In this document: positions 22,127 to 50,359 of the stretch, piece by piece
How the letters are laid out: every line of letters starts with the position of its first letter
Numbering within the stretch: the first letter of the stretch is position 1
Virus record (IMG/VR): IMGVR_UViG_3300044644_001243
Coordinates: 1-64,000 of that record
Strand: one strand, 5' to 3'
Origin: a virus
Length of the DNA stretch: 64,000 nt
Notes under the pieces: model-generated
Told to the model about the DNA's origin: nothing
Databases searched by the model: none
What the model saw: only the letters and a program-made list of their open reading frames with translations
Made by a program: the position numbers and the translations under genes

Positions 22127-24022
22127 TTAATTCCACATGTCACCATATTTTTCAACTATACCTTCATAGCTTAATGGACAAACATAGAATTTAAATTTAG
22201 ATATTTTACCAATGAATGTTCCAGCAAAATTTTCTTCAATTAATAACCCTCTATCGTTAAAATCTAACCCATCAAAAGTTTGACTCTCTAATAACCCTTG
22301 AGACCCACCACCTAAACTAAAATTAAACGGAACACCTACTTGTTTATCTTTATATTCGTTTAGTCTTTTAGCGATAAATTCATCAAATTCATCTACCCAA
22401 TAAATTAATTTACTGTTAATATAAAAAGATAATCTACCCTTTCTTGGTTTTGCTATTTTTAAGTCACAATCATCTAAATAATCTTGTGATTCATATTTAA
22501 TTACCACATGTGTCCACATGTCTTCTGGGACAGTATTTGGTGCTGAATAACCCTCTTCAATTGTGGCACCAGTAACATAAGATACGACACCAGTACTAGC
22601 GGTAACACATTGACCAGTATAAGTTAATAATCTATAACCAATACTACCATCATCTTTTACTCTAAAACCTATAGCATTATCAATAACGTCTATTTGATTA
22701 TTTAATTCCGTAATATCAGATGTAAAACCGCTAAAAGTACAAACAGTGTCTCTTCCTAACCCATCACTTTCACCGCTGCACGAATAACAATTACATTTAT
22801 TACTAGCAGCTCTACCATAAATTAAAAATGGGTTTTGAGTATTGGTTACTCTTTTTGTGTTTTTAACAACAACAATACCTTTTCCGTCATACGAACATGC
22901 GGTTTGAGTTCCTAACCCATCGCAACCACTAGAACATGGGTTACAACCACATCTACCACAAGACGAACTTATTTCAGTTGAATCATTATTTAATATTAAA
23001 AATCTAGTTGATTCCGAAACAATAATTTTTTCATCTTTTTCAGTAACAATATATTCTCCAAACTCATCAATTAAAAAAGATGCTGAATCACCAGATAATC
23101 TTTCATGTGGTTTACACGTTGACCTACCATAAATTAAAAATTGATTTGTGATTAAATCTATCTGTACTGGCGGTGGCGACAATGGTATTGCAATACCGTA
23201 ATCTCCTATAATTCTAACATCAGTTTCTTTTATAGGTGTACACCATGGACTTAATGTATCAGTACAACCAGTAGGTACTACACATGTGCTAGTACATCCA
23301 GTATCAGCACCTTCCCATACATTCCAAAATTTATTTTCAGCTCTAGTACCCATATAGAAGAAAAATCCTTTATTATTTGGGAAATCTTGATTTAATATTT
23401 TGGAATTAGAATTATGACACTCACCTGGATATTCTTGAAAATTTGGATTCAATACGAATTCAGATGACCATCCTATATTCATTCTTACTGGTAAAACTTC
23501 GTAATCATATCCATCTATTTTATAAAAACCTTGATAAAACCCACCACAAAATTGAACAAAAGGGTTAGTAACACCAGTAACAGCATATGTTGTATAATCG
23601 TATTCTTCAGTAGTACCAGTAACTTTATTCATAAACATTTTTTTGTTGTCTTTTTCCAAAATTAAAGTACTTCCAGTCAAAGCTTCAACTAGTGTTTGAT
23701 TTGTAGTATCACCAGTGTTCCTTTCAAAAGTCACATACCCATTATCAATACCAGTTAAACCAAAAGTATCAAATGTATAACCAGTATTTATAGCACCAGA
23801 CCAAGTAGATAAACTAATTATTGTTGTTGAAGTATGTGCACTATTTTTAAATGTTTCTATTTTACCAAAATTAAAGTTAACTGCTGCTCCACAACCAGCA
23901 CCACCTCCACCACCAGCACCACAAGCGTTATAATCATCAGATGTTATTATAAAATCCCAGTAATCAGAATTTGATAATTTTAAATCTAATTTGTTAAAAT
24001 TGAAGTTTTTAATATTTCCCAT
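22127..24022 (-). CDS. cysteine-rich virion protein with LamG-like C-terminus
   Basis: A 631-residue structural protein. It begins with a glycine/cysteine cluster (CGAGGGGGAGCGA, about residues 33-45). The middle has three FLIYGR or FLILNN repeats, two of them followed by Cys-rich loops (CGRCGCNPCSSGCDGLG and CNCYSCSGESDGLG). The C-terminal third has WTHVVIKYES, LSFYINSKLIYWVDEF and FAGTFIGKISKFKFY, a concanavalin-like pattern. The cysteine loops could bind metal or form cross-links, which is an inference. It overlaps the 24022-28857 fibre stop by one base. Confidence 0.7.
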   Translation of the reverse strand: MGNIKNFNFNKLDLKLSNSDYWDFIITSDDYNACGAGGGGGAGCGAAVNFNFGKIETFKNSAHTSTTIISLSTWSGAINTGYTFDTFGLTGIDNGYVTFERNTGDTTNQTLVEALTGSTLILEKDNKKMFMNKVTGTTEEYDYTTYAVTGVTNPFVQFCGGFYQGFYKIDGYDYEVLPVRMNIGWSSEFVLNPNFQEYPGECHNSNSKILNQDFPNNKGFFFYMGTRAENKFWNVWEGADTGCTSTCVVPTGCTDTLSPWCTPIKETDVRIIGDYGIAIPLSPPPVQIDLITNQFLIYGRSTCKPHERLSGDSASFLIDEFGEYIVTEKDEKIIVSESTRFLILNNDSTEISSSCGRCGCNPCSSGCDGLGTQTACSYDGKGIVVVKNTKRVTNTQNPFLIYGRAASNKCNCYSCSGESDGLGRDTVCTFSGFTSDITELNNQIDVIDNAIGFRVKDDGSIGYRLLTYTGQCVTASTGVVSYVTGATIEEGYSAPNTVPEDMWTHVVIKYESQDYLDDCDLKIAKPRKGRLSFYINSKLIYWVDEFDEFIAKRLNEYKDKQVGVPFNFSLGGGSQGLLESQTFDGLDFNDRGLLIEENFAGTFIGKISKFKFYVCPLSYEGIVEKYGDMWN

Positions 24023-27000
24023 TAGAAGTTTTCTAAATTAGTTCTTTTCCAACCAGTACTAGTTTTAACGTACATATAGTTATCATCTCTCGTTATGTTA
24101 CCTTCACTACCAGCAGTATCGTTAGATGATGTTGGTGTGTATAAAGGTATTGTTAATGCATTAGGTTTAAAATCGTTGTTTGTGATGAAATTACCGTTAG
24201 CATCAGTTATCAAATCAGCTGATTGGTCTTGACCTTTTGCATGTAATACACTTAAACCACCACCTAATGATGTTTCTTGCGTTCCATTGAAATTTAATTC
24301 AATGTTATTATCTTCAGCTAATATTGTTTGTGTTTCTAAATGAGTATTATTTGATGTTGTAACACCAGACGATAATTCTTTTACTGCCTCGATTAATAAA
24401 GCAACTACATTATCATAATGCACACCCATATATTCTTCTTCTGTGTTTTTATTCACAAAAGTTAACTCTGGAACTATACTATTAACTTCTTGTGCTATTA
24501 AACCTATCCTAACATCACCATTCGGTTCTTCAGTCCAATTATATTTTACACCTCTTAATTGATTTACTTTATCCAACGCATTAGTAAGTGTTTCAATGTT
24601 TGTTTTTAATCTTTCGTCTGATGTATTTGTAGTTAATGTACCATCAGAAGTATAATGTAATGCACCAGCTGAAGCTGACGAACCAACACCTCTAAATCTA
24701 GCGTTACCATTAACATCTAATCTTTGTGTAGGGTCTTGATTGTGAGGTACATTAATAGCAACATAACCTCTAGATGAACCAGAACCTTGTATATGTAAAT
24801 CTGGGTTATTAGAAGCACCAGCACCAGAAGTTTGACCAGCATAGAATCTAATATAATCAGCACCAGTACCAGATGTTGAACCATCATTTGAAATAATATT
24901 TAACCCATTTGTAAAAATACCAGCATATATGAATGCATCACCTTGATAACCATATACTGTATATATAGCATCATCCCAAGCTCTAGCACCCATACTTATC
25001 GAAGCTAATTTATTTGCGGTATTAGCTGTACCAGCAACCACTCCAACACTTGGTAGACCAGTTGTTGCTGAAAGAGTTATATTACCTACACCAGTACTAC
25101 TATAAAATAATCTATTTCCAGTTCCTCTAGCATCAATCAAATATTGTGGATTACCAGTTTGAATACCAATATAACCTCTATTTGTACCATCACCTTGAAT
25201 CTGAAAATCTGGTACTGCTGCTGCACTAACACTATTTATACCAGCATACATTCTTATATTGTTAGTACCACTACCACCACTTCTATTAATGATGTTTAAG
25301 TTGTTTGTTTTTTGTGATGAACTTAAATATGTATCACCAGAAAGTCCAACCAATTCTGAAGTGGCTGTTGATATTGAATCATCACCCAAAACACCCATTT
25401 GTAAAGATAACCCAAAACCACCTAAATAACTATTAGTAGCAGCCGCTATTTGTGGTACGTTGGTACTATTAGCTGAAAAAACAAAACTCTTAAAAGGTAA
25501 ATCATCACCAGTGTAAATATCAGCCAAAACAAGTCTAGCATTATTAGCTCTAGCATCAATAACATATTCTGGTGTTTTTGTATTTATACCTAATTTAGAT
25601 GCTGTACCGCCACTATTAACAATTAAATTAGGTACATAAACATAATCACTTGTTGTCGCTGTAATATCACTACCACCTAAAATAACGCTTCTACTAACAT
25701 ATTGGTTAATAACATTTCTTCTACCACCAATTATAGCTGAATTATAATTTGTATTAGAAGTAGCATGACCATTTATTGTATTACCAGACCCTCCTAAAAT
25801 TGTACAATGAGCAGTTTTACCAGTAATTGTGTTATCAACACCACCAATTATTGTGCTAAAGTTTGTCACATCATTACCATCAACATTGTCACCACCAGTA
25901 CCAGAATTATAAATGGTGTCAGTACTAAAATCAAGCAATCTATTACGTAATCCACCTAAAATAATTGACGAAGTGTAATTTTGTATTTCATTATATGTCC
26001 CTCCAACGATACTAGAAGATGTTGATGCAGATATAGTATTAAAAGCACCACCTAAAATAGTTTCATTACTCTTTCCTTCAGTTCCAGCTAAATCAAAATG
26101 TATAGTATTACCCATACCAGCCAATATAGCTGAATAAAAATGACCATTAATTGTATTACCAGACCCAGCAATTATTGCTGAACTAATAGTAGTAGCATAA
26201 TTAGCAAATCCTCTTTCGATACTGTTTAGTTTACCACCTAATATTACTGAATCATTTGCAGCGTCTTTAATAACATTTCCAGTACCACCACCAATAAACG
26301 AATTAGAACTACCAGTTATAGTGTTTTCAAAACCACCAGTTATATTAGAATAACTAGATAATTGTAATACTGAAGCAACACTAACATCAGAAGATATATT
26401 ATTTCCAGCACCACCTAAAATACTAGCATAAGATATGTCTTGACCAAAATAAGTGGACCTACTATTCATAGTATTCCCAGACCCACCTACAATAGTATTA
26501 GCATTGCCACCATTACCAACATGACTAGTATAAAGATTCTTATATCCACCAAATATTGAAACATCAGAAACACCTTCACCAGTTACTTTATTTTGATACC
26601 CACCAATAATTGTAACTCTAGCACCACTACCACTAATAAGACTGGTACTAGGATTATATTCATTTTCCTCACCACCAATAATAATTGAACTTGAAACATA
26701 ACTACAATAAGAAGGTTTTATACTATTATTAAGACCACCAATTATACCAGAACGAACACTAGTAAAAGCAGAACAATTCACACCACCTAGTATAAAACTA
26801 CTAACACTACCTATACCAGCTGTTCTACCATCAATTAAGTTATTATTACCACCAGCAATAAATGAATTATCAGCAACATAAATTGAATTATTAGCACCAC
26901 CAATTATAGATTCATTAGATGAATCACCATAGTTATTTAAACAGAAATCAATAAAGTTATTAAAACCTCCAACTATTACTGAATTTGAGTGACCAGAAAT

Positions 27001-28857
27001 TGTATTGTTTCGACCAGCAATGATTGCAGCGTATTTAGAAATATTAGATATTGTATTACCAGTACCAACAAAAATACCAGAACTAATCGAACCACCAGAT
27101 ATCTCATTATTACGACCACCAACTATAGCTGAGTCATTACTATATTTATGTATTTCATTCTCTCTACCACCCAATATTGTTGAGTTATTTGTTGCCTCAT
27201 AAATAATATTGGAATAACCACCACCAATAAAAGAATTTTCAGCATTTGCGTTAAAACCTGGTTGAGCTATACCTAAAATATTATATCTACCACCTAAAAT
27301 ACCAGAATAATCGGATAATTCTATATAATTCTCTTTACCACCTAAAATATAACTGTTTTCACCCCCACTAGATATAACTGATTGATTCGAATGAATAAAA
27401 CTATAATTACTGTCAGTACGTGAACTATAACCACCAGCGTGTGAATTTGTACCATACGCTATTGTGTCACTACCCTCAGCATGGGATGCAAACCCACTAG
27501 CTATTGTACCACTACCTTCAGCGTGAGATACACTACCACCAGCTATTGTATTTTGACCCTCAGCGTGTGATGTAGAACCACTTGCGATTGTACTAGAACC
27601 TTCAGCATGTGATTGAGACGCAGAAGCTATTGTATTAGAACCTTCGGCATGCGAACTATCACCACCAGCTATCGAACCAGAACCCTCAGCATGTGATGTA
27701 TCACCACTTGCAATAGTAATATTACCTTCAGCATGACTTCTATAACCACTAGCTATTGTATCTTTTCCTTCAGCATGTGAATAACCACCACCAGCTACCG
27801 TATTACCACCTTCAGCATGTGATGTATTTCCACTCGCTATTGTACTATGACCTTCAGCATGCGAATTACCACCACTTGCGGTTGTACTCTCACCTTCAGC
27901 GTGAGAAACAACACCACTTGCTATTGATAAATAACCTTCAGCATGACTTCTAGCATTACTAGCTATTGTATTACTACCTTCAGCATGTGAATAAACACCA
28001 CTTGCAATTGTATTAACACCTTCAGCATGTGCTGCTGTATTACTAGCTATTGTATCTTCACCTTCAGCATGAGACAAATCACCTAACGCTTGTGTACCAC
28101 CACCTTCAGCGTGTGAAGCTATACCACCAGCTCTTGTATTAACACCTTCAGATACAGAAGTAGAACCACTGGCAATACCATTAGAACCACCTAATACAGC
28201 TGAATTAGCACCAGTACCAGCAGTCCATATTGTTGCTGTTGTGGCACTTGAATTAAAAACCCAACCACCCATACCTTCTGAATCCAAACAAGTCCAAACA
28301 TATCCAACTTGTGGATTATCTGAAATTATTAATTTTTCAGTTCTAGTTATACCAGAAACATCAACCCATATTGTTCTACCAGTATAATCTAACGTTGAAG
28401 CAGTATAAACATCAAAGTTATTTGTTGTTATAGTACCACTATATGTTGATGGAGTTAATTGTGCTATTGTTACTACTGAAATGTCAAAATTAACACCAGA
28501 ATAAGTCAAAGCAACTGTGTTCCCATCGATTACTGTTGTTGTATTAGGTGTCCAAACAGCACCAGTATTTTGTGTTAAACCAGATGTTGATGAAGTTAAC
28601 GCAGATAAAGCTGAAACACCTAATTGCATTCTTGGGTCTGACCAATTATAAACTGTTGTTGTATTATTACCAGAAAACGTACTTGCTATATAAGTATAAT
28701 TTCCAGTAATAGCACTAGTTGTTAAATTTGGTCCACTAGGTAACAAATTAAAAGGTAAACCAAATGACGTACCACCAGATAAAACTGTTCTAGTTATAGG
28801 TCTTTGTTTTGCTTGTCTATTGTCTGAAAAATCTAATTTTGTTCTAAATCCACTCAT
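24022..28857 (-). CDS. giant tail fibre with S74 self-cleaving chaperone
   Basis: A 1611-residue fibre starting MSGFRTKLDFSD. Residues about 245-475 carry seventeen 14-residue SHAEG repeats (YadA-head-like). They are followed by a very long SxIxGGxxNxI solenoid to about residue 1070 and a beta-rich shaft. TSDERLKTNI marks a Peptidase_S74 intramolecular chaperone with the predicted nucleophile Ser1413. Such domains trimerise the fibre and then cut themselves off before this serine. A further segment of about 100 residues follows, ending in a DDNYMYVKTSTGWKRTNL tail seen at the end of other phage fibres. I chose the start at 28857 because it has an A-rich leader and a late-type motif 13 bases upstream. 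The longer reading from 28941 would overlap the divergent gene. Confidence 0.88.
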   Translation of the reverse strand: MSGFRTKLDFSDNRQAKQRPITRTVLSGGTSFGLPFNLLPSGPNLTTSAITGNYTYIASTFSGNNTTTVYNWSDPRMQLGVSALSALTSSTSGLTQNTGAVWTPNTTTVIDGNTVALTYSGVNFDISVVTIAQLTPSTYSGTITTNNFDVYTASTLDYTGRTIWVDVSGITRTEKLIISDNPQVGYVWTCLDSEGMGGWVFNSSATTATIWTAGTGANSAVLGGSNGIASGSTSVSEGVNTRAGGIASHAEGGGTQALGDLSHAEGEDTIASNTAAHAEGVNTIASGVYSHAEGSNTIASNARSHAEGYLSIASGVVSHAEGESTTASGGNSHAEGHSTIASGNTSHAEGGNTVAGGGYSHAEGKDTIASGYRSHAEGNITIASGDTSHAEGSGSIAGGDSSHAEGSNTIASASQSHAEGSSTIASGSTSHAEGQNTIAGGSVSHAEGSGTIASGFASHAEGSDTIAYGTNSHAGGYSSRTDSNYSFIHSNQSVISSGGENSYILGGKENYIELSDYSGILGGRYNILGIAQPGFNANAENSFIGGGYSNIIYEATNNSTILGGRENEIHKYSNDSAIVGGRNNEISGGSISSGIFVGTGNTISNISKYAAIIAGRNNTISGHSNSVIVGGFNNFIDFCLNNYGDSSNESIIGGANNSIYVADNSFIAGGNNNLIDGRTAGIGSVSSFILGGVNCSAFTSVRSGIIGGLNNSIKPSYCSYVSSSIIIGGEENEYNPSTSLISGSGARVTIIGGYQNKVTGEGVSDVSIFGGYKNLYTSHVGNGGNANTIVGGSGNTMNSRSTYFGQDISYASILGGAGNNISSDVSVASVLQLSSYSNITGGFENTITGSSNSFIGGGTGNVIKDAANDSVILGGKLNSIERGFANYATTISSAIIAGSGNTINGHFYSAILAGMGNTIHFDLAGTEGKSNETILGGAFNTISASTSSSIVGGTYNEIQNYTSSIILGGLRNRLLDFSTDTIYNSGTGGDNVDGNDVTNFSTIIGGVDNTITGKTAHCTILGGSGNTINGHATSNTNYNSAIIGGRRNVINQYVSRSVILGGSDITATTSDYVYVPNLIVNSGGTASKLGINTKTPEYVIDARANNARLVLADIYTGDDLPFKSFVFSANSTNVPQIAAATNSYLGGFGLSLQMGVLGDDSISTATSELVGLSGDTYLSSSQKTNNLNIINRSGGSGTNNIRMYAGINSVSAAAVPDFQIQGDGTNRGYIGIQTGNPQYLIDARGTGNRLFYSSTGVGNITLSATTGLPSVGVVAGTANTANKLASISMGARAWDDAIYTVYGYQGDAFIYAGIFTNGLNIISNDGSTSGTGADYIRFYAGQTSGAGASNNPDLHIQGSGSSRGYVAINVPHNQDPTQRLDVNGNARFRGVGSSASAGALHYTSDGTLTTNTSDERLKTNIETLTNALDKVNQLRGVKYNWTEEPNGDVRIGLIAQEVNSIVPELTFVNKNTEEEYMGVHYDNVVALLIEAVKELSSGVTTSNNTHLETQTILAEDNNIELNFNGTQETSLGGGLSVLHAKGQDQSADLITDANGNFITNNDFKPNALTIPLYTPTSSNDTAGSEGNITRDDNYMYVKTSTGWKRTNLENF
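27431..28116 (-). repeat. seventeen 42-bp SHAEG-coding repeats
   Basis: Exact 42-base period from 28116 to 27431. The conserved part is a 14-base core coding HAEG, with variable bases between. All units stay in frame, so the repeat encodes a solenoid and is not a CRISPR array. Confidence 0.9.
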
Positions 28858-28870
28858 TTTATTCTTTTTA

Positions 28871-28880
28871 TTATAAATAT
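28871..28880 (-). promoter_or_regulatory. late-type motif before the giant fibre
   Basis: A perfect ATATTTATAA on the minus strand, 13 bases from the ATG at 28857. It is divergent from the plus-strand copy at 28895-28904. Confidence 0.55.
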
Positions 28881-28894
28881 TAAAAGAAATGAAT

Positions 28895-28904
28895 ATATTT
28901 ATAA
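28895..28904 (+). promoter_or_regulatory. late-type motif before the 28918 operon
   Basis: A perfect ATATTTATAA, 13 bases upstream of the ATG at 28918. With the minus-strand copy at 28871-28880 it forms a divergent pair with identical spacing to both start codons. Confidence 0.55.
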
Positions 28905-28917
28905 ATAAAGATTTTTT

Positions 28918-29409
28918 ATGAAAAGAATAACTAAAAAACAATTAGATGAATTAGTAGGTGGTGATTTCACTAGCAGCGGAAGTGATATAAACATCATAGG
29001 CAATAGAGAAATACAAACTGGACCTATTGAAAAACCTTATAATGACGATTCTACTTACGAAAAGGGTATTTCAACATTTACTGATGTAGTTTTTGGTAGA
29101 TATAGACAAAATATTCCATGGTTTGCTGTTTACAGCTTTGGTGGTATTAGAACTGGTGGTATTACACTTAATTATGGTTTATCTGAAAATAAAAAAAACA
29201 TTTTAACAAAAGAAAATATTGAAGAATTAATTGAAGACTTAGTAAAAAAAGGTAAAGATTCAGATGTAAAACCTAAAAACTATAACCCAGATGTTGAAAA
29301 AGTTATGGATAAAATTTCTGATTTAGAATTATCTGAAGAACAAATAGAACAATTGTTAAAAGCTTTAGAAGACAAAAAGAATAACCCTTCAAAAACAAAA
29401 AACATTTAA
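28918..29409 (+). CDS. hypothetical protein, likely virion operon
   Basis: A 163-residue protein that opens a six-gene operon. The middle (GISTFTDVVFGRYRQNIPWF then AVYSFGGIRTGGITLNYGLS) looks beta-rich. The C-terminal third is charged and helical (LELSEEQIEQLLKALEDKK). No family recognised. The late-type motif upstream and the divergent fibre gene suggest a structural or assembly role, which is an inference. Confidence 0.6.
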   Translation: MKRITKKQLDELVGGDFTSSGSDINIIGNREIQTGPIEKPYNDDSTYEKGISTFTDVVFGRYRQNIPWFAVYSFGGIRTGGITLNYGLSENKKNILTKENIEELIEDLVKKGKDSDVKPKNYNPDVEKVMDKISDLELSEEQIEQLLKALEDKKNNPSKTKNI

Positions 29410-40327: not shown

Positions 40328-41022
40328 TGGATTTTACTTTTGGTATAGTAACTGGCGGAGATAATGATGGTATGTTAAATGACATTATCAATTCAATAGA
40401 AAAAGAAAACATACCTAACTATGAAATAATCATCATAGGTCACTCAACAATCAATAGAAAAAATACAAGGGTTATTGTTTTTAATGAAAACATAAAACCA
40501 ATGTGGATAACAGCAAAAAAAAATCTAATCACACGTGAGGCTAAATATGAAAATGTTGTATATTTTCACGATTACATTAGATTAAATGAAGGTTGGTATG
40601 AAGGTCAATTAATCGCTGGCAATGACTTCAAAATTAGAATGGATAGAATCATTAACTTAAATGGTGAAAGGTTCAGAGATTGGTGTATTTGGCCACATAA
40701 TGATAATAAAATGGATAATTTTATTCAACGAGAATGTTTAATACCTTATGATATTACACATTTATCAAAATATATGTATATTTCTGGTGCTTATTGGATT
40801 GCTAAAAAAGAAGTTATGTTAGAATACCCATTAGATGAAAATTTAATATGGGGACAAGGTGAAGATGTTTTATGGTCAAAACAAGTAAGACTTAAATATG
40901 ACTTTAACATGAATCCAAATTCTAGCGTTCAAATAATCAAACCAAGCAAGGACAAAGTTTTTGACGAAACTAGCAATGATAAAATAGAAATATTAAATGA
41001 TAAAAAATTATGGTTAAATTAA
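40327..41022 (+). CDS. GT2-like glycosyltransferase
   Basis: A 231-residue protein starting FTFGIVTGGDNDGMLNDIIN, then YEIIIIGHSTINR, then a possible HDY metal-site motif in NVVYFHDYIRLNEGWYEG. Near the end, YISGAYWIAKKEVM and WGQGEDVLWSKQVR fit the acceptor side of GT-A enzymes. The family is assigned by layout. It overlaps the 41010 gene by 13 bases. Confidence 0.7.
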   Translation: MDFTFGIVTGGDNDGMLNDIINSIEKENIPNYEIIIIGHSTINRKNTRVIVFNENIKPMWITAKKNLITREAKYENVVYFHDYIRLNEGWYEGQLIAGNDFKIRMDRIINLNGERFRDWCIWPHNDNKMDNFIQRECLIPYDITHLSKYMYISGAYWIAKKEVMLEYPLDENLIWGQGEDVLWSKQVRLKYDFNMNPNSSVQIIKPSKDKVFDETSNDKIEILNDKKLWLN

Positions 41023-42383
41023 TTATATTTGATTTAGATGGTGTTTTAGTTGACGCAAAAGAAATACACTATGAATCTTTAAATAAAGCTATTGAATTAG
41101 TTGACAAAAAATTTATCATCACTAGAGATGAACATTTGAATAAATACGATGGACTACCAACTAACGTTAAGTTAGATTTATTAACAAAGGAAAAAGGTCT
41201 ACCAGAATCTCAACATAAGTATGTTTGGGAAATGAAACAAAAAATGACATCTGACGTGATTAAAGAAACGTTGACTGAATCAATGGAATTAAAAAATGTT
41301 TTAAGAAAACTTAAAACAGATGGGTACAAAGTATACGTTGCTTCAAATTCAATACGAGAATCAATTAAATTGATGTTATATAAAACTGGTCTTATTGAAT
41401 ATGTAGACCATTATTTTGGTAATGAAGATGTTAAAACTTCAAAACCACACCCAGAGATTTATTTAAAAGCTATGGTTCACGCTGGTGTTAAACCAAATGA
41501 AACAATAGTTGTTGAAGATAGTTTCCATGGAAGACAAGCAGCAATTGATTCTGGGGCCTTTTTATGTGCTGTAGAAACACCAAATGATGTCACATATAGT
41601 AAGATATCAAATTTGGTTAAAAACGTTACAGAAGTCTCTAAAATCAATAATAAATGGGAGTCTGATGATTTCAACATCTTAATACCTATGGCTGGTGCTG
41701 GTTCTAGATTTAGTTCTGCTGGTTATACATTCCCTAAACCATTGATTGAAGTTGACCACAAACCAATGATTCAAGTAGTTGTGGAAAACCTTAATATTAA
41801 AGCTAATTTTATTTATATTGTTCAAAAAGAACATTACGAAAAATACAACTTAAAATATTTGTTAAATTTGATTACACCTAATTGTGAAATAGTACAAGTT
41901 GATGGTGTAACTGAAGGTGCTGCATGCACAACGTTATTAGCTAAAGAATTTATTAATAACGATAAACATTTATTAATCGCTAATTCTGACCAATTTGTTG
42001 AATGGGATAGCAATAGCTTTTATTATTCAATGACAAATGACAACTTAGATGGTGGTATGTTAACGTTTAAAGCGACACACCCTAAATGGTCTTTTGCTAA
42101 ATTAGATGAAAATGGTTTCATCACTGAGATTGCCGAAAAGAAACCTATAAGCGACATTGCAACGGTTGGGATTTATTATTGGAATAAAGGTTCAGATTAT
42201 GTTAAATACGCTGAACAAATGATTGAAAAAAATGTTAGAGTTAATAATGAATTTTATGTTGCACCAGTTTACAATGAAGCAATTTTAGATGGGTTTAAAT
42301 TTAAACCATATAATATTAATAAAATGTGGGGTTTAGGAACTCCAGAAGATTTAAAAACTTATTTAGAAAACTTTACATCTTAA
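41010..42383 (+). CDS. HAD phosphatase/mutase fused to sugar nucleotidyltransferase
   Basis: A 457-residue fusion. Residues 1-215 are a HAD domain of the beta-phosphoglucomutase type, with nucleophile motif FDLDGVLVD (7-15), VASNS near 110, KPHPEIY and VEDSFHGRQAA (168-178). Residues 222-457 are an NTP-transferase with PMAGAGSRF (226-234) and a KPLIEVD lysine at 243. Together they could convert a hexose phosphate and then make an NDP-sugar. The exact sugar is unknown. The stop is one base before the next gene. Confidence 0.85.
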   Translation: MVKLIIFDLDGVLVDAKEIHYESLNKAIELVDKKFIITRDEHLNKYDGLPTNVKLDLLTKEKGLPESQHKYVWEMKQKMTSDVIKETLTESMELKNVLRKLKTDGYKVYVASNSIRESIKLMLYKTGLIEYVDHYFGNEDVKTSKPHPEIYLKAMVHAGVKPNETIVVEDSFHGRQAAIDSGAFLCAVETPNDVTYSKISNLVKNVTEVSKINNKWESDDFNILIPMAGAGSRFSSAGYTFPKPLIEVDHKPMIQVVVENLNIKANFIYIVQKEHYEKYNLKYLLNLITPNCEIVQVDGVTEGAACTTLLAKEFINNDKHLLIANSDQFVEWDSNSFYYSMTNDNLDGGMLTFKATHPKWSFAKLDENGFITEIAEKKPISDIATVGIYYWNKGSDYVKYAEQMIEKNVRVNNEFYVAPVYNEAILDGFKFKPYNINKMWGLGTPEDLKTYLENFTS

Positions 42384-46315: not shown

Positions 46316-46675
46316 ATGAATAGACCAAAAACAATTTTTTTAGACATTGACGGAACACTCATTGAGCATTCCGAAAACATTGCAGAGCAATTTACTAAAA
46401 CACCTAGACTTTTAGATGGTACTTTAGAAAAGTTATCCGAATGGGATAGAAAAGGTTATAACATTATTTTAACAACTGGAAGACGTGAAGGTGTTAGAGA
46501 TATAACCGTTAAACAATTAGCTGAGTTAGGTATCTTTTATGACCAATTGATAATGGGTCTAGGAGGTGGAATTAGAGTCGTTGTCAATGATAGAAAAAAA
46601 GACAAAGAATATGACACAGCAATAGCCATAAACCTTAAAAGAAATGAAGGTATTAATTCAATAAAAGATTTATAA
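46316..46675 (+). CDS. HAD-family sugar phosphatase
   Basis: A 119-residue minimal HAD hydrolase. The nucleophile motif is FLDIDGTLIEHS (5-16), followed by LTTGRREGVRD (motif II) and VVNDRKK (motif III region). The small size without a cap resembles capsule-biosynthesis phosphatases that act on sugar phosphates. Its position beside an isomerase-like cupin and a nucleotidyltransferase supports that. The gap before it is 16 bases. Confidence 0.8.
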   Translation: MNRPKTIFLDIDGTLIEHSENIAEQFTKTPRLLDGTLEKLSEWDRKGYNIILTTGRREGVRDITVKQLAELGIFYDQLIMGLGGGIRVVVNDRKKDKEYDTAIAINLKRNEGINSIKDL

Positions 46676-46676
46676 T

Positions 46677-47030
46677 ATGAAAAAAGAAGTTACAAAAGTT
46701 GATAAACCATGGGGATGGGAAAAATGGATTGAAGTTAATGAAAATTACGTAGTTAAAGAATTATTCATGACAGCTGGAAATAGTTGCAGCTTACAGTACC
46801 ATGAAAAAAAACATGAATCTTTTTATGTTTTAAAAGGTCAAATTAAATTTGAAATTGGCCCAGACAAAGACACCTTAACTGAAATGATTTTAAATGAAGG
46901 TGAGTATTACACAATTGAACCATTTGTAGTTCATAGAATGTCGGCAATCGTTGACAGTTTGTATTTAGAAAGTTCTACAAATTTTCTAGATGACGTTATT
47001 AGAATAGAAGATAAATATGGTCGAGTATAA
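46677..47030 (+). CDS. cupin, phosphomannose isomerase-like
   Basis: A 117-residue cupin similar to the C-terminal half of type II mannose-6-phosphate isomerases. It has KPWGWEKWIEVNENYVVKEL, then LQYHEKKHESFYVLKGQIKF (metal-site His and Glu), then TIEPFVVHRMSA. The expected reaction is the interconversion of fructose-6-P and mannose-6-P or a similar sugar. It overlaps the next gene by 14 bases. Confidence 0.82.
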   Translation: MKKEVTKVDKPWGWEKWIEVNENYVVKELFMTAGNSCSLQYHEKKHESFYVLKGQIKFEIGPDKDTLTEMILNEGEYYTIEPFVVHRMSAIVDSLYLESSTNFLDDVIRIEDKYGRV

Positions 47031-48567
47031 AGTTTTAATAACCACTAGTGGTGTTGGTTCTAGATTAGGTGATTTAACTAAATACACTAATAAATGTTTA
47101 GTTAGAGTTGGTAAAAAACCAGCGATATCATATATCGTAGAAGCATACCCTAAAGAAGTTGAATTAGTTGTAACTGTTGGTTATTTTGGAGAACAAGTTA
47201 AAGATTTTTTAACACTAGCTTATCCAGAAAGAAAAATTACATTTATCGAAGTTGATAAATATGAAGGTGAAGGTTCATCTCTTGGTTACTCAATGTTAAA
47301 AGCTAAAAATGAATTACAATGTCCATTTATATTTCATGCAGCAGATACTATAATAACTGAAGAAATTAAAGAACCAACAGAAAACTGGTTGGCTTGTCAA
47401 TTCAAAGAAAACAATTCACAATATAGAACTTTATCTTTTATTCCTAATAGAATGATAAATGACAAAGGAGATTTAACCTCTAAATTTGCTTATATTGGAC
47501 TTGCTGGTATAAAAGATTATAAATTGTTTTGGGATTCATTACAAGAGGAATATGAAGCAGATACTAGCGATACAACATTAAGCGATTGTCACGCAATCAA
47601 TCGAATGAATATTAAATGGGAAACAAAAGAATATTTCAATTGGTTAGACATAGGTAATGTATTTGAATTAAAACACGCTAGAGAAGTTATATACGACAAA
47701 TTTGAATTGTTAGATAAAGTAGATGAATCAATCTTTTTATTTAATGATTTCGTTATTAAATTTTTCTATAATAAAACAGTTTGTGCTAACAGAGTTGAAC
47801 GATGTAAACAACTATCTGGGTTAACACCTAAATTGATTGACAGTAAAGATAATTTTTACAAATACGAATATGCTGCTGGTGATTTATTAGCAACGTCAGT
47901 AAATGAAATTATTTTTGAAGATTTTTTAGATTGGAGTAAAAACAACCTATGGGTTAAACATGGTCAGTCTGAAGACTTTAAAGAAATAACTAAAAAGTTT
48001 TATTTTGATAAAACTTATGAACGATTACAAAAATTATTTAATGATAATAAAATAAGTGATGAAGAGATTACCATCAATGGTATGGTAGTACCACCAGTTA
48101 TTGATATGATAAAAGAAATAAATGAAAACTGGTTATGTTCAGACACTTATTATCAATTTCATGGTGATTACATTTTAGATAATATTATTTATAAAGGTAA
48201 TCGTGAATTTGTGTTATTAGATTGGAGACAAGACTTTGGAGGTGATTTAAAAAATGGTGACATCTATTATGATTTAGCTAAATTAAATCACAATTTATTA
48301 TTCAATCACGATATTGTCCATCAAGAATTATTCTCAGTTAAAAAATCATCAAACGGTATTAAATGCGATATTTTAAGAAGTGATATTTTAACTAATTGTA
48401 GAGAAAAGTTACATAAGTGGATTTTTGACAATGGGTTAGATTTAAAAAAGGTTCAAACACTGACAGCAATCATATGGTTAAACATGTCGCCATTACATGA
48501 TTACAAGATGGGTGAGTTTTTATATTATTTTGGTCGCTTTAATCTTTACAAAGTGTTTTATAAATAA
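47017..48567 (+). CDS. nucleotidyltransferase fused to APH/choline-kinase-like domain
   Basis: A 516-residue fusion. Residues 1-225 are a nucleotidyltransferase (TTSGVGSRLGDLTKYTNKCL, with a GxGSR loop at 12-17; HAADTII near 107 as metal site). Residues 235-516 resemble aminoglycoside/choline kinases: FHGDYILDNI (catalytic HGD...N, 381-390) and LLDWRQDFGG (DWR, 402-404). The layout recalls a joined LicC and LicA (phosphocholine activation), but a sugar kinase plus pyrophosphorylase is equally possible. It is tightly packed with neighbours. Confidence 0.82.
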   Translation: MVEYKVLITTSGVGSRLGDLTKYTNKCLVRVGKKPAISYIVEAYPKEVELVVTVGYFGEQVKDFLTLAYPERKITFIEVDKYEGEGSSLGYSMLKAKNELQCPFIFHAADTIITEEIKEPTENWLACQFKENNSQYRTLSFIPNRMINDKGDLTSKFAYIGLAGIKDYKLFWDSLQEEYEADTSDTTLSDCHAINRMNIKWETKEYFNWLDIGNVFELKHAREVIYDKFELLDKVDESIFLFNDFVIKFFYNKTVCANRVERCKQLSGLTPKLIDSKDNFYKYEYAAGDLLATSVNEIIFEDFLDWSKNNLWVKHGQSEDFKEITKKFYFDKTYERLQKLFNDNKISDEEITINGMVVPPVIDMIKEINENWLCSDTYYQFHGDYILDNIIYKGNREFVLLDWRQDFGGDLKNGDIYYDLAKLNHNLLFNHDIVHQELFSVKKSSNGIKCDILRSDILTNCREKLHKWIFDNGLDLKKVQTLTAIIWLNMSPLHDYKMGEFLYYFGRFNLYKVFYK

Positions 48568-48579
48568 TATATTTGGTGT

Positions 48580-49578
48580 ATGAAACCAAAAATATTTATA
48601 GGACCGATGAGTAAAAATATTGTTGACGCAATTATTAATTACTCAAATGAAAATAACGTTGAAATTGGATTAATACCATCTAGAAGACAAGTAGAGTTTA
48701 ATGGTGGTTATGTTAACAATTGGACAACTAAAGACTTCTGCGAATACGTAAGAAGCAAATCTAATAAAATCTTATTAGTAAGAGACCATTCTGGTCCATC
48801 ACAAGGATATAGTGAAGATGACGGTATGGATTCTTTTATTGAAGATTGCAAATATTTCGACATTATACATGTTGATGTTTGGAAAAAACATAAAGAATAC
48901 CGTGATGGGTTATTAGCCACAGTTGAATTTATTTTAAAAGGTTATAGATTAAATCCAAACATGTTATTTGAGGTTGGAACTGAAGAAGCAATCAGACCAA
49001 CAAATGAAGTAGAATTAAACAATCTTTTAGAAGACTTAAAAGAATTACTACCATTAGACATATATGGTCAAATTAAATACGCTGTAATCCAATCTGGAAC
49101 AGCATTAAAAGGTAACACAAATATTGGTAGTTTCAATCAAGATAGATTAATTGAAATGGTTAAAGTTGCCAAAAATCATGGCATGATTTCAAAAGAACAT
49201 AATGGTGATTACCTAACAAATGAATTAGTTAAATCGAAATTTAATAATGGGTTAAACTGTATCAATATTGCCCCAGAATTTGGACAAATAGAAACAAAAA
49301 TTATTTTAAACATAATTAAAACTAATCATATAGAATTACTAGATGAATTTTATGAGATTTGTTATGAATCAAAAAGATGGGTAAAATGGGTTGACTCTGA
49401 TTTTATACCAGAAGATAACAAAGAAGAAATCATAAACATAAGTGGTCATTATGTTTTCTCTGAACCTAGATTTATTGAACTTAAAAATAAATTGAATTAT
49501 AACAATTTAGATTCTGAAGTGCAACAAGCAATATACAACAGAATTGATGAATTAATTAAAACTATAAATGAAATCTAA
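48580..49578 (+). CDS. GatZ/KbaZ-like TIM-barrel protein
   Basis: A 332-residue protein that resembles the non-catalytic subunit of tagatose-bisphosphate aldolase. It has IGLIPSRRQVEFNGGYVNNW, ILLVRDHSGPSQG, FDIIHVDVWKKH and AVIQSGTALKGNTNIGSF. These correspond to phosphate-binding and barrel-strand positions in that family. Residue conservation is by memory of the pattern. Its job in a phage is unknown; a C-C bond aldolase or lyase acting on a sugar phosphate fits the sugar-activation genes beside it. Confidence 0.65.
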   Translation: MKPKIFIGPMSKNIVDAIINYSNENNVEIGLIPSRRQVEFNGGYVNNWTTKDFCEYVRSKSNKILLVRDHSGPSQGYSEDDGMDSFIEDCKYFDIIHVDVWKKHKEYRDGLLATVEFILKGYRLNPNMLFEVGTEEAIRPTNEVELNNLLEDLKELLPLDIYGQIKYAVIQSGTALKGNTNIGSFNQDRLIEMVKVAKNHGMISKEHNGDYLTNELVKSKFNNGLNCINIAPEFGQIETKIILNIIKTNHIELLDEFYEICYESKRWVKWVDSDFIPEDNKEEIINISGHYVFSEPRFIELKNKLNYNNLDSEVQQAIYNRIDELIKTINEI

Positions 49579-50359
49579 AACAGCGTTTATAATATTTGCT
49601 CACTCAACAACACACACGATTGAAGATGTTGATGATATGATAGATAACATATCTTATTTCCATGATAATTGTGATTTCATGATTAATCACCCAACATTAG
49701 ACCACCCTAAAATTAGAATGCGTCATATGCTTGGTCCTTTAAATCATTCTAACTTTATTTTTGGTGCGTTGATTGATTTAATTAGAAATATAAGTGAAGA
49801 TGAAATAAATAGTTTTGAACACTTCTGTTTAGTTTCAGCTAACCAATACTTTATAAATGGAATTAACTTTGAAAAAGGTGTTAATTATGCACAATTTTTA
49901 AATACTGAAGATTGGGTTTCATCATATAACGGAAAAGACTCAGACAAAACTATTGTAGGGTTTCCATTACAGCAACCATATGGTCGTTGGGACCCTAAAA
50001 ATTTATATCTTGAATATAATATAGAATTACCTATGAGTGCTAATTGGGAATGTATGACAGTAACAAAAGAAGTTATGTTATTGGCTAAGCAGCATTTAGA
50101 CAAATGTTTAGAATATTACCCTAATGATGATATGATAAATATTTTTCTACCTTATATGATTTTACTTAGCGGACAACAATGGGAGTTTCCACCTTACTTT
50201 GGTACTTACGACCCATCAAATAAACCTAATTATAATTGGGTAATTACAATAAATCAAATTGTTGAAAAATTCAATCAAGGTTATTTCTCTGTTAAAAGAG
50301 TTAATTACCATAAAAATTGTGAATTAAAACAATTCATTAGACAAAATTATATGAAATGA
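49568..50359 (+). CDS. putative glycosyltransferase
   Basis: A 263-residue protein. The start KTAFIIFAHSTTHTIEDVDD and the segment HFCLVSANQYFINGINFEKG recall branching-type (GT14-like) transferases, weakly. It is aromatic-rich in the C-terminal half (GQQWEFPPYFGTYDPSNKP). It begins inside the previous gene (11-base overlap) and ends in an ATGA overlap. Confidence 0.58.
   Translation: MKSKTAFIIFAHSTTHTIEDVDDMIDNISYFHDNCDFMINHPTLDHPKIRMRHMLGPLNHSNFIFGALIDLIRNISEDEINSFEHFCLVSANQYFINGINFEKGVNYAQFLNTEDWVSSYNGKDSDKTIVGFPLQQPYGRWDPKNLYLEYNIELPMSANWECMTVTKEVMLLAKQHLDKCLEYYPNDDMINIFLPYMILLSGQQWEFPPYFGTYDPSNKPNYNWVITINQIVEKFNQGYFSVKRVNYHKNCELKQFIRQNYMK

Follow-up and report, generated by a model that had tools for sequence, protein, structure and literature searches.

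The protein of 332 aa encoded at positions 48580–49578 of the window (the whole stretch of 64,000 nucleotides analysed, taken from a virus record of 128,170 bases) belongs to a sister family of GatZ, with the metal site intact and the pocket re-tooled, and is not classed as a GatZ/KbaZ member itself. Its gene adjoins that of a fused nucleotidyltransferase-kinase (NTK) throughout the viral loci collected. It probably needs a metal and epimerises a ketose phosphate at C4, a step that would channel a sugar phosphate into the making of a nucleotide-activated, uncommon sugar.

The open reading frame runs uninterrupted from ATG to stop on the + strand, while its reverse complement in the same register is full of stops. 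It starts 12 bases past the preceding gene of a co-directional run and overlaps the following one by 11 bases, within a glycosyltransferase-rich, co-directional block of 28% GC. A chance reading frame was ruled out by the exact coordinates, the operon-like overlaps and the existence of 179 viral and 221 cellular relatives. A Bacteroidota −7-like element (TATATTTG) just 5′ of the start was dropped as a candidate: the window has 5 copies, and shuffled sequence gives an expectation of 12.2. The initial annotation had placed the gene beside sugar-activation genes, and the three genes preceding it agree with that description:

46316–46675, + strand: HAD phosphatase with a DxDGT motif, 119 aa
46677–47030, + strand: cupin of the phosphomannose-isomerase (PMI) C-terminal type (PF01050: 35 bits, cut-off 23.6)
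47017–48567, + strand: NTK, a LicC/RmlA/MurU-like nucleotidyltransferase domain (residues ∼1–230) fused to an APH/choline-kinase-like kinase domain (motifs HGD....N and DWR)
48580–49578, + strand: GatZ-like TIM-barrel protein, 332 aa, with predicted metal site H70, E135 and H207 and predicted general base D69
49568–50359, + strand: protein of 263 aa matching neither Pfam nor PHROG families; in near relatives, too, its gene comes after the GatZ-like one (11 loci, cluster c25)

As a single sequence the protein resembles GatZ/KbaZ weakly, yet by more than chance. It matched Pfam PF08013 at E = 0.013 (14.6 bits, under the cut-off of 26.7), the NCBIfam KbaZ family at E = 0.0048 and, in a sequence search, PDB entry 3txv at E = 0.014; a PHROGs search returned no match. 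A tblastn search of 50,697 phage records yielded a single marine virus, at 49% identity, and four records with a Listeria label, at 27%. The 179 viral and 221 cellular relatives came from degenerate-pattern scans, and the best 80 of each were kept. A profile built from 43 relatives, the window protein included, matched E. coli GatZ (PDB 2fiq) at E = 2.5 × 10–8 and 3txv at 4 × 10–6, with aldolases weaker; E-values from scripted searches of small sets apply to those sets. At E ≤ 0.01, PF08013 was matched by 23 of the 43 family members and PF01116, the class II aldolase family, by 5. One relative (locus L030) scored 40.2 bits in PF08013, yet reached only 33.5 against the TIGR02810 cut-off of 568.8. 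Some relatives are longer: the GatZ-like protein at L006:8001–9311 carries an extra C-terminal domain with a SnoaL-like match, and that at L094:7995–9317 is of similar length.

The predicted structure (pLDDT 94.7, pTM 0.91) agrees with the profile. Its top two Foldseek matches were 3txv (E = 2.3 × 10–15) and 2fiq (E = 1.2 × 10–13), and VIA-align superposed it on GatZ 2fiq over 325 residues at 2.6 Å with a Z score of 31.4, followed by 3txv (29.7), tagatose 4-epimerase 9kcs (26.8), UxaE 6il9 (25.3) and T4Ease 9lhw (24.9). Class II aldolases lay below the 4-epimerases (GatY 1gvf, 23.1; fructose-bisphosphate aldolases, ∼21 to 23). The GatZ/KbaZ-like barrel read from the sequence by the initial annotation was thus borne out, and this structural comparison, specified beforehand, led to GatZ, to tagatose/tagaturonate 4-epimerases and to class II aldolases, not to a barrel unconnected with sugars. 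A link to phosphoenolpyruvate-dependent sugar synthases, which the same annotation had raised, found no support, since no such enzyme was among the 50 structural matches listed; KDO8P-synthase-like giant-virus proteins appeared in BFVD only, with a TM score of ∼0.4, and BFVD held no whole-length match to the model. The UxaE/tagatose 4-epimerases, which by their entry titles are C4 epimerases acting on unphosphorylated ketoses or uronates, have the barrel in common with the virus protein but are ∼490–500 aa long and only 10–13% identical to it, and a UxaE match was absent from the NCBIfam, Pfam and 43-member-profile searches.

PMC11907403 reports that the GatZ and KbaZ proteins of E. coli epimerise fructose-6-phosphate at C4 to give tagatose-6-phosphate; GatZ was modelled there with His88, His257 and Glu171 as metal ligands and Asp87 as base, E44 and K279 were named as positions at which it differs from aldolases, and class II fructose-bisphosphate aldolases (FBAs) were described as having a three-histidine metal site. 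Residues D69, H70, E135 and H207 of the virus protein align with GatZ D87, H88, E171 and H257 (the GatZ positions were checked in the E. coli sequence). Across the 43 aligned rows D69, H70 and H207 never vary, and position 135 holds Glu in 37 rows and Asp in the other 6. The three-histidine site of class II FBAs and tagatose-bisphosphate aldolases is absent: where GatY has GTAHG the profile contains no His, and an acidic residue (Glu or Asp) occupies position 135. The whole-length fold, the two-His-plus-Glu triad, the catalytic Asp and the GGY and Q37 motifs are common to the virus protein and GatZ (420 aa). Around this site the two diverge: GatZ E44, S47, G86, E255, S258 and K279 correspond to I32, R35, R68, K205, N208 and N229, so that the window protein and its kin have Ile and Asn where PMC11907403 places the family-specific E44 and K279. 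Family-wide changes relative to GatZ/KbaZ comprise I32, S34, R35, R68, E131, K205, N208 and N229, and the same pattern was seen in cellular kin from Sinorhizobium, Enterococcus, Pantoea and Listeria. Because several active-site positions differ across the whole family, the group is better regarded as a sister of GatZ than as part of it, and these changes could mean another substrate or another reaction.

To determine how far the gene neighbourhood is conserved, a set of 82 viral loci was assembled (the window, one phage record and 80 IMG/VR loci, the best 80 of the 179 viral relatives), counting genes on the same strand within 3.5 kb of the GatZ-like gene. The NTK gene adjoined the GatZ-like gene in all 82, the cupin gene in 74, the HAD gene in 67 and all three in 65; after dereplication at 90% identity the figures were 65, 59, 54 and 52 of 65 loci. 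Several missing cupin or HAD calls reflect contig ends or lower-scoring HADs. When the scan was seeded with the NTK instead, a GatZ-like gene was found in 79 of 80 viral loci, the exception (L212) being a contig that ends 485 bases past the NTK, and in 62/62 of those loci whose contig extends 3 kb or more in each direction. By hand count, 41 of these 80 contigs were new relative to the first, GatZ-seeded set; since only the best 80 of the 383 NTK relatives were kept, as of the viral and cellular ones, looser pairings may occur further out. The survey of homologues called for by the initial annotation thus revealed that in dozens of distinct viruses the gene and that of an enzyme for nucleotide-sugar activation go together, whichever of the two is the starting point. 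The GatZ-like protein therefore very likely functions as an enzyme at the head of a glycan-precursor pathway.

Gene fusions joined the cupin with the NTK, or the HAD with the cupin. The NTK model (pLDDT 93.3) matched LicC, RmlA, MurU, GalU and PntC structures over its first half; its kinase half had no match of its own among those listed, a weak Pfam APH match being its only family support. The HGD....N and DWR motifs were present in all 115 NTKs scoring at least 500 bits, the nucleotidyltransferase motif in 99 of the 115, and the HAD motif in 72/73 HADs of at least 100 bits; an initial cupin motif fitted 47 of 120 cupins and was left out of the evidence. GatY-type aldolases (PF01116, E ≤ 0.1) were found in none of 17 virus records, which may be fragments and which include the 128,170-base record of the window; the same search matched 11 of 14 control genomes. 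This is in line with the earlier remark that no catalytic GatY partner is nearby: the partner of GatZ/KbaZ is GatY/KbaY, whereas that of the present family is the NTK.

Among cellular loci (the best 80 of 221) an NTK was near in 39, as was a cupin in 39. The common bacterial order is KdsC-type HAD, GatZ-like protein, putative glycosyltransferase (no family match), cupin, NTK and C-methyltransferase-like protein; the KdsC matches of these HADs fall below the curated cut-off. A plasmid search for the bacterial NTK gave no match. A related mini-cluster is present on the large Sinorhizobium plasmid pSS05631a (L167, 8016–11492), where genes for a cupin, a DegT aminotransferase and a HAD come after a GatZ-like gene that carries the annotation 'tagatose-6-phosphate kinase', with no NTK in the stretch listed. 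A second cellular group, without NTK, combines fructose-type PTS genes with a fructose-6-phosphate aldolase or transaldolase, again with no GatY in the stretch listed; these kin are the reason for arguing that the GatZ-like family acts directly on ketose phosphates. An Enterococcus faecium plasmid (L168, 2510–8878) with fructose-type PTS, GatZ-like and fructose-6-phosphate aldolase genes and no GatY apparently bears an uncharacterised ketose-phosphate catabolic operon. Two records labelled Listeria phage (L010, OR846732.1; L011, OR846727.1) contain PTS-operon or other host-like genes. Both have a run of GatZ-like, HAD, regulator and methyltransferase genes, followed in L010 by integrase- and repressor-like genes and in L011 by other genes, as if, from a reading of the ORFs, a prophage had inserted there.

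The third cellular group consists of marine flavobacteria in which the GatZ-like gene stands alone, an NTK match being found in 0/11 genomes. Of 12 other genomes used as controls, 8 matched the NTK at E ≤ 0.001; seven matches were strong (six cellular genomes chosen for the module, plus L025) and the eighth was weak and partial. In most of the marine Bacteroidetes genomes (L013–L023, L026 and L028) the position of the lone gene is conserved, next to genes resembling those for nitrilase and succinate dehydrogenase. Since these bacteria keep a close homologue without the NTK, the GatZ-like enzyme can serve elsewhere too. In a phylogenetic tree whose virus rows were a one-in-three sample of the dereplicated loci (L029, L086 and L151 being left out), the viral rows formed one clade, with support of 100, together with the flavobacterial rows and three further cellular ones, and the flavobacterial rows were nested among the viral ones; the branches that bear the root are very long, and its position is unsure. 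A virus-to-host transfer of the gene in marine Bacteroidetes is possible.

The virus protein is very likely an active, metal-dependent enzyme of the barrel superfamily to which GatZ and the class II aldolases belong; its fold and metal-site residues are conserved. That it has its own reaction on sugar phosphates, as the initial annotation had supposed, is well supported by the retention of the GatZ catalytic residues (as given in PMC11907403), by the lack of a GatY-type gene and by the presence of NDP-sugar activation genes at every viral locus examined. From these observations we infer which reaction takes place, how the steps are ordered, and what the substrate and the sugar are. The GatZ-like enzyme would take the committed first step, epimerising a ketose phosphate at C4 through a retro-aldol/aldol mechanism with H70, E135 and H207 holding the metal and D69 acting as base; the simplest candidate would be fructose-6-phosphate to tagatose-6-phosphate. 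The PMI-like cupin would then convert the ketose phosphate to an aldose phosphate (it could also be an epimerase rather than an isomerase), the kinase half of the NTK would phosphorylate C1, the HAD would remove the terminal phosphate, and the nucleotidyltransferase half would make an NDP-sugar, a putative substrate of the many neighbouring glycosyltransferases. In the simplest worked example, tagatose-6-phosphate would yield a talose- or galactose-type NDP-sugar. It is plausible that the gene helps the virus to make an uncommon sugar. The NDP-heptose pathway (GmhA, HddA, GmhB and HddC) likewise activates a sugar phosphate by kinase, phosphatase and nucleotidyltransferase steps; the virus module differs from it in having a cupin in place of GmhA, a fused nucleotidyltransferase-kinase and a GatZ-like enzyme at the start.

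One feature counts against this simple epimerase-isomerase scheme, which does not need it: the AroE (shikimate dehydrogenase)-like protein of many viral loci. This protein is encoded at L145:6725–7372 and at 39 other loci, and is shortened to ∼205–230 aa in viruses. Its gene accompanies all 24 viral loci with a cupin-NTK fusion but only 1 of 52 with separate genes (6 partial-NTK loci were set aside), and its family membership is upheld by NCBIfam, the L034 protein passing TIGR00507 with 210.7 against 200.2. Given the changed pocket and this partner, the substrate may be another than that of the tagatose-6-phosphate route. We regard as unlikely the reading in which the protein is an epimerase or isomerase of another substrate class (a sugar acid, an amino sugar or a carbocyclic intermediate); here R68 and K205 would hold an additional anionic group, and the AroE-like partner would reduce a ring or carboxylated ketone. 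These two conserved cations beside the metal-site residues, where GatZ has Gly and Glu, speak for it, as do the AroE-like gene of the fused loci and the KdsC-type (ulosonate-phosphatase family) HAD of the bacterial clusters; however, those KdsC matches are sub-threshold, an AroE-like gene is missing from the neighbourhood in the window and at almost every viral locus with separate genes, and the PTS-operon kin suggest ordinary sugar phosphates. A broader proposal goes further and is distinctly unlikely: an undescribed NDP-sugar pathway common to viruses, bacteria and archaea, in which the GatZ-family barrel, in many lineages with the AroE-like dehydrogenase, would make a sugar or carbocyclic unit of a kind new as a nucleotide-activated donor, with which phages would decorate their own particles or DNA.

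A true aldolase, joining or cleaving a C–C bond (for example between DHAP or dihydroxyacetone and an aldehyde) to give a new ketose skeleton for the NDP-sugar, is unlikely. The superfamily and its metal-dependent carbonyl chemistry are common to both, class II aldolases (PF01116; GatY, 1gvf) come just under the epimerases in structure, the family profile matches GatY in a direct test and sulfofructose-phosphate aldolase 8q57 at 2.4 × 10–4, and N229 aligns where GatY has Asn and GatZ has Lys. Nevertheless, the metal site is of the two-His-plus-Glu GatZ type and not of the three-His type given for class II FBAs (PMC11907403), the aldolases score lower in structure than GatZ and the 4-epimerases, and cellular kin adjoin a separate aldolase or transaldolase. 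A non-catalytic chaperone subunit stabilising a host GatY-type aldolase, as the long-standing annotation of GatZ/KbaZ would have it, is compatible with the fold and distant homology but very improbable, given the metal and catalytic residues kept across viruses, bacteria and archaea, the lack of a GatY-type gene in 17 virus records, the strict linkage to the NTK instead, and the report in PMC11907403 that E. coli GatZ and KbaZ are themselves epimerases.

The ketose-phosphate C4-epimerase that we favour has a fold and a likely chemistry that are already known; the subfamily, its strict pairing with the NTK and its spread among viruses were not found described in the PMC full-text literature, nor was the module, judging from titles and abstract openings. 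The C4 epimerase of PMC12632266 is not GatZ-like, since according to that source IolO led to its discovery and its annotation is that of a D-tagatose 3-epimerase. We know of no activity recorded for any member of the GatZ-like subfamily. Such proteins are currently annotated as a 'non-catalytic subunit', or even as the kinase named above, and the module could show what a large unassigned family does and offer a new way of making rare activated sugars. Elsewhere in the window, a second sugar-activation gene (41010–42383) encodes a beta-phosphoglucomutase-like HAD fused to an RmlA-like nucleotidyltransferase, and positions 24022–28941 encode a protein of 1639 aa in which many repeats of the SHAEG type and a chaperone-like C-terminal part were noted by eye; it may be a tail fibre.
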